A stretch of 64,000 nucleotides of DNA from Spirochaetota bacterium (lineage in GTDB: Bacteria; Spirochaetota; Brachyspiria; Brachyspirales; JACRPF01), in the NCBI GenBank assembly GCA_016214035.1, contig JACRPF010000007.1:186001-250000 (forward strand). Reading direction: 5' to 3'. Below, piece after piece: positions 20,600-49,501 of this stretch. The notes beneath the pieces are model-generated. The model saw only the letters and a program-made list of their open reading frames with translations. It was not told where the DNA came from and searched no databases. Both the position numbers and the translations under genes were made by a program. The stretch's first letter is position 1. Each line of letters starts with the position of its first letter.

Positions 20600-20649
20600 T
20601 TGGTACGTCCGGGTGAACATCCGGGCACATGATGATCATTGAAAAAATG

Positions 20650-20954
20650 AAGCAGGATGAATAAACGCGGAAACGCAAGTTTCTGAGGAAAGTCCGTACC
20701 TCTAAAGGGAAGGGCGCAGGCTAACGGCCTGACGGTGTGAACCGATGGAAAGTGCAGCAGAAAATATACCGCCGGAAACGGTAAGGGTGAAATGGTGCGG
20801 TAAGAGCGCACCGCGCACGGAGTGATCCGCTGCGGCAGTGCAAACCCCGCCCGAGGCAAGGTCAAACAGAGCTTTGGTACCCTTTCTTACACGCTCAGGT
20901 AGACCGCAAAGATAAATGTTTATTCGCGACAGAATGCGGCTTATAGTCCTGCTT
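20650..20954 (+). ncRNA. rnpB: RNase P RNA, bacterial class A
   Basis: About 305 bases. The universal core GAGGAAAGTCC is at 20685-20695 and the 3' signature ACAGAATGCGGCTTATAG ends at 20946. P1 is visible as AAGCAGGA (20650-20657) with TCCTGCTT (20947-20954). A second long-range helix is GAATAAAC (20659-20666) with GTTTATTC (20918-20925). A run of Ts (20956-20962) directly after P1 makes P1 double as the terminator. The RNA is the catalytic subunit that trims 5' ends of tRNA precursors. The promoter is not obvious, so it may be read from the rpsU side. Confidence 0.95.
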
Positions 20955-20972
20955 CTTTTTTTATACGCGGTC

Positions 20973-21137
20973 TTATTGTCCCGTATACTTCTTCACGAAC
21001 GAAACAAATTTATTCACATCAACGGCGCCCATCTCAACGAGTATTTCGCCGAGCGTGCCGCCGCGTTTTTTCTGGATCAGCTTTGCGCGTTCCAGACAAT
21101 CCCTCGTAATGATACCTTCGGTGATAAGTTCCTGCAT
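20973..21137 (-). CDS. 54-residue MshEN-like small protein downstream of csrA
   Basis: A short reverse-strand frame from ATG 21137, with a strong AAGGAGAG ribosome site, to TAA at 20973. The product begins MQELITEGIITRDCLERAK and continues LIQKKRGGTLGEILVEMGAV to end KYTGQ. The pattern ITxxxLexAxxxQkkxgxxLGEILVExGxV is that of one half of the N-terminal domain of GspE/PilB-type ATPases (MshEN, a c-di-GMP-binding module in some members). Here it stands alone, with no ATPase. It starts 33 bases after the csrA stop and is probably cotranscribed with fliW-csrA. Its 3' end meets rnpB convergently. The role is unknown. Confidence 0.75.
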   Translation of the reverse strand: MQELITEGIITRDCLERAKLIQKKRGGTLGEILVEMGAVDVNKFVSFVKKYTGQ

Positions 21138-21170
21138 ACGACTCTCCTTGCTTTAACGTTACACTTTTTG

Positions 21171-21467
21171 TTATTTATCCGGTTCGTTCTTCGGCACCGT
21201 GCCGCCCTCGCCTGCCGCACCCGCTTTCTGTATCTCGCCCGCCTTCAAAAATCCGCCGAGATTCTTTATCGCTTCGGTATCCATGCGCGCGGCGGCCTCT
21301 TTATTGGCACGTTCTATCTCTTCATATATTTCCTTGCGGAACACCTTCACATCTTTCGGCGCGTGAATCCCCACCTTGATGTTTTCACCTTTGATATCGA
21401 TGATGACAATCTCGATATTATCGCCGATAACGATGCTTTGATTAATTTTGCGTGACAATACCAGCAT
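21171..21467 (-). CDS. csrA: Carbon storage regulator CsrA with C-terminal extension
   Basis: 98 residues, against about 60-75 in most CsrA proteins. It is a dimeric RNA-binding repressor that blocks ribosome sites containing GGA. Key RNA-contact positions are kept: Leu4, Arg6 and Arg44 in MLVLSRK and VFRKEIYEEI. The final 40 residues (after about 58) are Ala/Gly/Lys-rich and probably flexible; they end GTVPKNEPDK. It lies 9 bases after fliW, the usual Gram-positive and spirochaete arrangement, in which FliW sequesters CsrA until flagellin builds up. Confidence 0.94.
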   Translation of the reverse strand: MLVLSRKINQSIVIGDNIEIVIIDIKGENIKVGIHAPKDVKVFRKEIYEEIERANKEAAARMDTEAIKNLGGFLKAGEIQKAGAAGEGGTVPKNEPDK

Positions 21468-21476
21468 TCGCTGTCC

Positions 21477-21914
21477 TCACGCCGATGCTTTCGCGACTAC
21501 CGGATGCCGCGTTGAATAGTTGTCATTGAGCGCGATACACTGCTTCGCCGTCATAGTCACCTTATTGATGACAATAGGCCCCTGCAGATTGGCGGTCATA
21601 TCGGCCATGCGTTCGGGAACGGTGACGATGAGAAAAACGAGGACGTCATCAAGCGTACGGATGCCGAGTTCCGCGAGGTCGTTCGAGTGTATGTCCAGCT
21701 GATACCAGGAAAACAGCAGCCCCGGCGGTATGACGATGAACGACAGGTTTTCATCATCCACCGACTGCAGCACGTGAAAGATGCCGTCCTTGTCCATATC
21801 AAGCAGATAAAACTCGTGGTATTCCTCAAACCCGAACGGTCCCTGCGAGAAGCGGATATGCCTGCTCTCGTCAATCTCTACCGTGCCGAGTATTCGTGAA
21901 CGGATGATGGCCAT
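21477..21914 (-). CDS. fliW: Flagellar assembly factor FliW
   Basis: 145 residues, typical FliW length. FliW binds CsrA and flagellin alternately, coupling flagellin synthesis to export. Family strands are clear: RILGTVEIDESRHIRFSQGPFGFEEYHEFYLLD, then FIVIPP, and the closing TANLQGPIVINKVTMTAKQ with QG-PI-IN. The ATG at 21914 follows a GGAGCG ribosome site, and the gene leads the fliW-csrA-small-protein unit. It implies the organism makes flagella although no flagellin gene is in this window. Confidence 0.94.
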   Translation of the reverse strand: MAIIRSRILGTVEIDESRHIRFSQGPFGFEEYHEFYLLDMDKDGIFHVLQSVDDENLSFIVIPPGLLFSWYQLDIHSNDLAELGIRTLDDVLVFLIVTVPERMADMTANLQGPIVINKVTMTAKQCIALNDNYSTRHPVVAKASA

Positions 21915-47081: not shown

Positions 47082-48092
47082 ATGAAGAAGATAGGTCTTA
47101 TGGGCTGCGGAGCGGTTGCCGATTACGGACATATCCCCGCTATTCTGAATATTAAAAACCTGAAGCTGCAGGCGTTATTCGACCCGAACGAAGCGAACCT
47201 GCATCGTCTGCAGAAAAAATACAGCATACCCATGGCATTCACTGACGCCGATGAGTTCTTCAGTTCCGGCATAGACGCGGTGAGCATAACCTCGCCCGCA
47301 CCGTGTCACAAACAGAATGTATTCGATGCTGCGCGGCATAAACTACCGGTCATATGCGAAAAGCCGCTTGCCATGGACAGAAAAGAATCCGCGGCGATGG
47401 TGGCCGTCATGAAAAAAGCCCGTATGCCGCTGTACACCGGATTCTGCTACCGCTTCAGCCCATGCTCGCTCAAGATACGCGAACTGGTTGCGCGCAAGGC
47501 CATCGGCAGAGTAAAGTCGCTGCGACTCATCTATAATTGGGACTGTCATGGAAAATACGAGAACGACGGTCGCGGCAGAAAAATAGTCCAGAAACGGCGC
47601 GCTGACCGGATGCTCGAAGGCGGGCCCATGGTGGACTGCGGTACGCATCAGATAGATCTCGCCGCGTTCTGGCTTGGTTCCGACATCGTATCCTACCACG
47701 GGCACGGCGCCTGGGTTGACTCCTATGAAGCGCCGGATCACATGTGGCTTCACCTCGACCATAAAAACGGCGCTCACACCACGGTGGAGATAAGTTATTC
47801 CTATCACTTCACCTCGAAGGAACGGATAAACGAATTCGTGTATGAACTGATAGGCACTGAAGGCGTTATCCGCTATGACCGCAACGCCAGAACATTCACG
47901 ATGCGTAACGCCAAAGGGACATACGACCTCGGCTTTCATCACGAAAAGAATTTCGAGGGTATGTACCGCGAATGGGCGAAATCGCTGCATACCGGAAAAC
48001 CGGGGCTCCTCACCACCGCTGAAGCGGGCATGCGCGTCACCGATATAGCCCGCAACGCCACCAACGAGGCGATAAAAAACCGGATTGCGTAA
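47082..48092 (+). CDS. Gfo/Idh/MocA-family oxidoreductase
   Basis: 336 residues from ATG 47082 with a GGAG site. Rossmann fold GLMGCGAVADYGHIPAI, family EKP motif in VICEKPLAMD, and MVDCGTHQIDLAAFWLG with the likely catalytic His. The family oxidises or reduces sugars and inositols with NAD(P); the substrate cannot be told. No sugar transporter or isomerase is adjacent, so its pathway is unclear. The diguanylate cyclase gene follows on the same strand after 26 bases. Confidence 0.88.
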   Translation: MKKIGLMGCGAVADYGHIPAILNIKNLKLQALFDPNEANLHRLQKKYSIPMAFTDADEFFSSGIDAVSITSPAPCHKQNVFDAARHKLPVICEKPLAMDRKESAAMVAVMKKARMPLYTGFCYRFSPCSLKIRELVARKAIGRVKSLRLIYNWDCHGKYENDGRGRKIVQKRRADRMLEGGPMVDCGTHQIDLAAFWLGSDIVSYHGHGAWVDSYEAPDHMWLHLDHKNGAHTTVEISYSYHFTSKERINEFVYELIGTEGVIRYDRNARTFTMRNAKGTYDLGFHHEKNFEGMYREWAKSLHTGKPGLLTTAEAGMRVTDIARNATNEAIKNRIA

Positions 48093-48118: not shown

Positions 48119-49501
48119 ATGTCTGGATTAAGCATACCAGTTCTGGTGATGGCCGGTATCACGGCGTATGTCAGCATCTACCATCTGATATTCCATTTCA
48201 TCAAGGGCAGGCAGAAAGAAAATTCCTATCTCTATTTCGCCATGCTCGCATTCGGCGTGACGCTCTACGACATATTCTCCATCGTCCTTTACAATTCCGG
48301 CGATGTGATCACCAGCATCTTTGCACAGCGCGGACAGTATTTCAGCATCGGCGTCATATCACTCATGACCGCCCTCTGGATCTTCGACATACTCAAGCAC
48401 CGCTCGCGTCTTTCCGACATACTCATCGTCTCGTACATCGTTCTTGCCGCACTTCCGCTGGCACCGCTGCCCTGGATGTTCTCGCCGGCGATGTATATCG
48501 ATCATCATATACTGGGCTATTCCTTTATCGAGGCAACTCCGCAGGCGCTCATCTTCGTCTTTTACGCGGTGTACATCATCGGCATCGGCACCGGCGTTGT
48601 ACTCATGACACGCGCGCTGTTTGTCGATAAAAAGCTGACGCTTCTCCCCACCATACTTTCCATTGTAGTATTCTTCATCACCTGCGCATTCGACATCGGC
48701 ACCGGGCTCGGCAGGACAAATCTCCCCTACGTGCTTGAATATGGTTTTCTCGCGCTCATCTTCGGCATGACACACACCCACTTTGTGCGTTACCGCGAAC
48801 TTGAAAAGACACAGGACGCGATACAGAACAAGCTTGAGCGGCAGGTGCAGGAACGGACGTCGGAGATTCGCCTGTTCGTGGAAAAGCTCAAAGACCAGAA
48901 CAAACTCCTGCAGGAGATGGTGGAACGCGACGGCATGACGGGGCTCTACAATCACGCGGCATTTCAATCCCGGCTGAAAGCGATGCTCAACGCCTCGCGG
49001 CGTCATCGTTTCCCCATCGCCGTTCTTGTCATGGACATCGATGATTTCAAAAACTACAACGACACCTACGGGCACGCGTTCGGAGACACCGTCATCAAGG
49101 CAGTCGCCGAAGTGCTCAAGATAGCATCGCGCGACTACGATATCAAAGCGCATCTGAAGAACGCCGACACGGTCATCCCGCTCGACCTCGCCCCTCCCGC
49201 GGTACGTAATTACGATATCGTTGCACGCTACGGCGGCGACGAATTCGCGGTAATACTCCTCTTCTGCGGCGACAAGGAAACGCACATCGTCTGCGACCGA
49301 CTGATACGCCATGTTGAGGAGATACGGTTCGACCAGCACCCCGAGCTTCGTGTTCATCTGAGCCTCGGCGCGGTAACGCTTGACGAAGCAACGCCCTGCG
49401 GTGACAACAATCTGCTTTTCAAGCAGGCCGATGAAGCATTATATGAAGTGAAACGCAAAAGCTCGCACGATTACCTCATCGTCCCGTTCACGCCGCACTA
49501 G
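48119..49501 (+). CDS. Membrane-bound diguanylate cyclase
   Basis: 460 residues. The N-terminal 230 residues contain about seven hydrophobic segments (ISVLVMAGITAYVSIYHLIFHF-like first helix, then TLLPTILSIVVFFITCAFDIG), like a 7TM sensor. A coiled coil (EKTQDAIQNKLERQVQERTSEI) links to the GGDEF domain: DGMTGLYNHAAF, VMDIDDFKNYNDTYGH, and RYGGDEF with the active site at 372-376. The inhibitory RxxD site is Arg363-Asp366, five residues before, so product inhibition is likely kept. About 20 extra residues (DIKAHLKNADTVIPLDLAPP) lie before that site. It makes the second messenger cyclic di-GMP. Confidence 0.92.
   Translation: MSGLSIPVLVMAGITAYVSIYHLIFHFIKGRQKENSYLYFAMLAFGVTLYDIFSIVLYNSGDVITSIFAQRGQYFSIGVISLMTALWIFDILKHRSRLSDILIVSYIVLAALPLAPLPWMFSPAMYIDHHILGYSFIEATPQALIFVFYAVYIIGIGTGVVLMTRALFVDKKLTLLPTILSIVVFFITCAFDIGTGLGRTNLPYVLEYGFLALIFGMTHTHFVRYRELEKTQDAIQNKLERQVQERTSEIRLFVEKLKDQNKLLQEMVERDGMTGLYNHAAFQSRLKAMLNASRRHRFPIAVLVMDIDDFKNYNDTYGHAFGDTVIKAVAEVLKIASRDYDIKAHLKNADTVIPLDLAPPAVRNYDIVARYGGDEFAVILLFCGDKETHIVCDRLIRHVEEIRFDQHPELRVHLSLGAVTLDEATPCGDNNLLFKQADEALYEVKRKSSHDYLIVPFTPH

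Follow-up and report, generated by a model that had tools for sequence, protein, structure and literature searches.

A 54-residue open reading frame, ORF54, follows fliW and csrA in this contig, and an earlier note took its product for a free-standing MshEN-type protein that might connect cyclic di-GMP to CsrA. The locus therefore raises the question of whether ORF54 is a genuine gene, which family it belongs to, and whether it is likely to sense cyclic di-GMP or to do something else beside CsrA. Throughout, the window is the whole stretch of DNA that was analysed (64,000 nt). The features of the locus are the following.

20649..20959, plus strand: rnpB, RNase P RNA class A, convergent with ORF54 (RF00010, E 1.3e-80)
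20973..21137, minus strand: ORF54, stand-alone MshEN_N-like protein of 54 aa, MQELITEGIITRDCLERAKLIQKKRGGTLGEILVEMGAVDVNKFVSFVKKYTGQ (open reading frame, relative, profiles)
21144..21149, minus strand: Shine-Dalgarno sequence AAGGAG of ORF54, 6 nt 5' of the ATG (read from the sequence)
21171..21467, minus strand: csrA, 98 aa, with a C-terminal extension past the 53-residue core (PF02599, E 9.4e-24)
21477..21914, minus strand: fliW (PF02623, E 1.1e-36)

The fliW-csrA-ORF54 locus and its conservation

fliW, csrA and ORF54 succeed one another in this order on one strand, with ORF54 starting 33 nt past csrA, and this spacing and common orientation suggest that the three genes are cotranscribed. 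The strong ribosome site claimed for ORF54 is present (AAGGAG, 6 nt before the ATG), and a longer start is impossible because an in-frame TAA lies 6 codons upstream. The frame ends by a stop codon after residue 54, with neither a fusion to a T2SSE ATPase nor any further in-frame domain. Control of ORF54 by CsrA through its own leader was considered and rejected: the Shine-Dalgarno sequence lies within CAAGGAG (ACAAGGA in the relative described below), and folding is no better than that of shuffled sequences (z 1.09 and 0.30).

Conservation was assessed in G001, which belongs to another genus and is the one further genome of this family among those analysed, so the operon link is one pairwise comparison between two genomes. 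The order fliW-csrA-ORF54 is kept at the G001 locus (L055), the ORF54 frame has the identical length, and its ribosome site is good in both genera. Furthermore, ORF54 is more conserved between the genera than its neighbours (identical residues: ORF54 46/54, FliW 103/145, CsrA 52/90). Of its 44 base differences, 7, 6 and 31 lie at first, second and third codon positions, with pN 0.106 vs pS 0.80. This third-position bias, together with the kept order and length and the 46/54 identity, indicates that ORF54 is a real protein-coding gene under purifying selection. Conservation of frame and synteny, proposed as a check by the earlier note, was thus borne out. Since the genes flanking the operon differ between the two genera, fliW, csrA and ORF54 appear, from this single comparison, to have stayed together.

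Close relatives of ORF54 were found in 2 of the 393 genomes of the phylum, both in its own family. This restriction to two genomes, like the truncation of its first motif (see below), is what one would expect if the frame were a decaying, functionless fragment of a GspE/PilB gene. That explanation is contradicted by the substitution pattern, as well as by the equal length and the good ribosome site in both genera, and we regard it as very improbable.

ORF54 and rnpB face each other with their 3' ends 13 nt apart, in keeping with the earlier statement that ORF54 ends within 20 bases of rnpB. rnpB stands outside the fliW-csrA-ORF54 unit, as it is not adjacent to the operon in G001. A search of the minus strand across the gap to rnpB (window 20960-20972) yielded no consensus terminator, so the operon transcript could read through antisense to RNase P RNA.

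Spirochaetes typically have the periplasmic flagellar protein FlaA (PF04620), which is encoded by two copies here and was absent from all 14 control genomes. Because of these two copies and four flagellin-type matches in the genome, we infer that the host is a flagellated spirochaete. CsrA control without small RNAs runs through FliW, and both marks of such a module are found here, fliW adjoining csrA and a flagellin leader with a GGA hairpin. Two flagellin leaders (L241 and L242) carry a GGA in a hairpin loop (UUUUCAUGGAUGAAAA; AAAGGCAAGGAAGCCUUU) 5' of AAGGAGG ribosome sites, with z of -3.8 for the first hairpin and -1.8 for the second. These hairpins are putative CsrA sites of the textbook type, which makes an ordinary CsrA-FliW-flagellin circuit plausible in this genome.

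Two further observations were made elsewhere in the window. At 48926-49462, one 464-aa frame gave two separate partial GGDEF matches (C11:234926-235162 and C11:235199-235462), so the domain may contain an insertion or have a degenerate middle. At 47227-47257, an Rfam IRE_II match (31.6 vs a threshold of 30 bits) is probably due to chance, the host being a bacterium.

Family, fold and stand-alone relatives

ORF54 matches the NCBIfam model NF053729 ('c-di-GMP_motif, MshE-related') with 40.5 bits (E 1.7e-10), above the curated cut-off of 38 bits. The match spans profile positions 6-50 of 53, and the first 5 positions, which carry the R-L-G head, are missing in ORF54. An independent profile was built from the MshEN_N stretches beside the PF05157 regions of the phylum's GspE/PilB proteins, selected by a rule other than similarity to ORF54. 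Of the window's 1189 frames, this profile picked out ORF54 and no other at a significant level (E 1.4e-9, the runner-up having 2.4). When PDB sequences were searched by profile, ORF54 matched PilF, MshE and PilB.

AlphaFold2 predicted four helices (residues 2-6, 12-25, 29-36 and 41-52) whether it was given an alignment (pLDDT 81) or the ORF54 sequence by itself (pLDDT 90). In Foldseek searches, the best matches of the model were MshE (5htl) and PilF GSPII-B, with a TM-score of 0.82 (0.64 for the alignment-free model). The Foldseek E-values were weak (0.03-0.1), as expected for a protein of only 54 residues. ORF54 is therefore a member of the MshE-related domain family, homologous to the MshEN_N four-helix bundle, the cyclic di-GMP sensor of pilus motors, and the claim of a free-standing MshEN-type protein after fliW-csrA stands. 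The description of ORF54 as easily missed does not, as NF053729, a current model, names it.

Pfam PF05157 ('MshEN') did not match ORF54. On the GspE of the same genome this model covers residues 60-138, beyond the 53-residue motif region; PF05157 thus models the MshEN_C half and not the cyclic di-GMP-binding MshEN_N, and its lack of a match is uninformative. The profile check proposed earlier accordingly succeeded with NF053729 and failed with PF05157, the latter being a misleading test. For the same reason, Pfam-based surveys with PF05157, a model named MshEN that represents the other half of the domain, would miss stand-alone MshEN_N proteins.

Other identities were considered and set aside. 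A Pfam hit to Nse4-Nse3_bdg is too weak to be more than noise (E 0.059). DUF2949, as a stand-alone relative, matched one sister protein weakly (E 0.0018) and a literature search on it was empty. FlgV, a small spirochaete flagellar protein, is unrelated, being a two-transmembrane protein whose gene lies in the flagellar superoperon (PMC11607428). A PHROGs search with ORF54 returned no match.

Stand-alone MshEN_N proteins are common in the phylum, where at least 40 of the matches listed come from frames no longer than 125 aa, and we found them described nowhere in the open-licence papers searched. The genome under study has three such genes besides ORF54, on contigs C16, C14 and C19. The first (L064:9042-9233) encodes a protein of about 64 aa, and the same small protein occurs in G001 (L068); in L064 and L062 this type of gene lies directly 3' of a gene identified as an MCP by Pfam. 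In the C16 protein, motif I retains its R, G and Q and motif II its G and Q, with P in place of R38; judged by these residues, the protein would be a better candidate cyclic di-GMP receptor than ORF54. The other two (L236:6715-6918 and L237:6431-6634) are paralogous 67-aa proteins in which Q32 is replaced by A. In addition, three CheA-like proteins of this genome (L238, L239 and L240, on C12 and C18) contain an internal, shortened MshEN_N; CheA fusions have been mentioned before (PMC5013675).

These relatives bear on one alternative, that ORF54 works in another system, for example as an MshEN_N partner of CheA or GspE, and merely shares the fliW-csrA transcript. The genome does offer such partners (GspE, three CheA and the three further stand-alone MshEN_N proteins), and no MshEN_N frame was found at 110 csrA loci of other genomes (best E 0.4), two of which, L168 and L175, stop just past csrA. 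Against it, the place of ORF54 in the operon is kept in two genera despite differing outer neighbours. We consider this alternative unlikely.

The ligand site and a possible role for ORF54

MshEN_N consists of two 24-residue motifs of the form RLGxx..G..L...L..Q separated by a 5-residue spacer (Wang et al., PMC5013675). Alignment to V. cholerae MshE (VcMshE) places both motifs in ORF54, on the minus strand.

21072..21137, minus strand: motif I remnant, residues 1-22
20985..21056, minus strand: motif II, residues 28-51, including LGEILVEMGAV

ORF54 therefore covers nearly all of MshEN_N, both motifs minus the first two residues of motif I, rather than the second half of the pattern as was originally described. 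In motif I, R9 and L10 are absent, G11 corresponds to M1, the start methionine, and L29 to K19, while L25 and Q32 (Q22 in ORF54) are kept. In motif II, R38, L54, L58 and Q61 are replaced by T28, F44, V48 and Y51, and L39 and G40 are kept as L29 and G30. ORF54 thus departs from both the motif I and the motif II consensus of an MshEN cyclic di-GMP receptor, and its G001 homologue is identical to it at every listed ligand-site position. Both LG glycines, L29 and Q61 are conserved in the rest of the stand-alone MshEN_N proteins examined.

In VcMshE, L10 forms a hydrophobic cluster over Gua2, G11 is essential, and the G11I mutation abolishes binding; the non-binding XpsE carries G11V, L29R, R38G and Q61V among its changes (PMC5013675). 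Since most contact residues are missing or replaced in both genera, canonical binding of cyclic di-GMP by ORF54 appears doubtful, as does the sensing role first proposed for it. The residue changes alone are no proof of a loss of binding, because PilF GSPII-B has K and L instead of the two arginines and still binds, at 6 nM (PMC11731258).

This tolerance of arginine loss is one reason to weigh the possibility that ORF54 truly binds cyclic di-GMP at an altered site, a dimer perhaps supplying the missing half, and feeds this signal into CsrA/FliW control of flagellin. ORF54 also passes a model named for the cyclic di-GMP motif, retains Q32 and the LG of motif II, and is encoded in a genome with 29 GGDEF and 5 PilZ matches; moreover, the MshEN_N of VcMshE binds on its own, without MshEN_C, with a KD of 0.35 uM (PMC5013675). 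However, the RLG of motif I is wholly gone, and with it the roles of L10 and G11; both genera have K for L29 and Y for Q61; and PilF GSPII-A, in which one motif is degenerate, does not bind (PMC11731258). On balance we find a receptor of this kind improbable.

Identity between the genera is distributed unevenly along ORF54 (28/30 over residues 25-54, 18/24 over residues 1-24), and this difference points to the second helix pair, residues 25-54, as the constrained surface. There is a precedent for an eroded bundle within a protein-interaction surface: in X. citri PilB, an MshEN_N-type bundle without the ligand residues lies inside the N-terminal region that contacts a PilZ protein (PMC8389850).

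As read from its sequence, then, ORF54 is a conserved MshE-type domain that stands alone, is encoded in a fliW-csrA operon and has a degenerate ligand site, and a protein-protein role beside CsrA/FliW seems likelier than cyclic di-GMP sensing. We propose that this free-standing four-helix bundle, the product of the third gene of the operon, may have ceased to sense a ligand and become a small module for protein-protein interaction that is made jointly with FliW and CsrA, and that it would probably tune the FliW-CsrA-flagellin switch or couple it to another motility component. We would put even chances on ORF54 being such an operon-encoded interaction module, probably adjusting the switch. The more specific version, in which ORF54 would be a third component of the switch that binds CsrA or FliW, so that flagellin translation answers to cyclic di-GMP or to a motility protein, is one we hold to be quite doubtful. 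If true, a dedicated third operon protein derived from a second-messenger domain would represent a new way into the CsrA-FliW circuit.

Comparison with known systems

The MshEN_N of V. cholerae MshE (5htl) shares with ORF54 the four-helix bundle and the arrangement of its motifs and spacer (TM-score 0.82, 30% identity). Unlike MshE, ORF54 is free-standing, lacks MshEN_C and the ATPase as well as the motif I RLG, and carries L29K, R38T and Q61Y. X. citri PilB ND0 (7lko) and XpsE (2d28) resemble ORF54 in having the same fold with the ligand residues lost, and it is the ND0-ND1 region of PilB that binds the PilZ protein. In contrast to ORF54, both are part of an ATPase, and their identity to it is only 13-19%.

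The stand-alone MshEN_N proteins of the phylum (those on C16, C14 and C19, and others in G037 and G039) are, like ORF54, single small domains (60-110 aa), whereas they retain the two glycines, leucine and glutamine named above and have other neighbours (an MCP gene, a glycerol-kinase-like gene and others). Finally, the FliW-CsrA modules of B. subtilis and C. jejuni share with this locus the adjoining fliW and csrA and the GGA-hairpin flagellin leaders, but the operon described here has an extra third gene, of the MshEN_N type.
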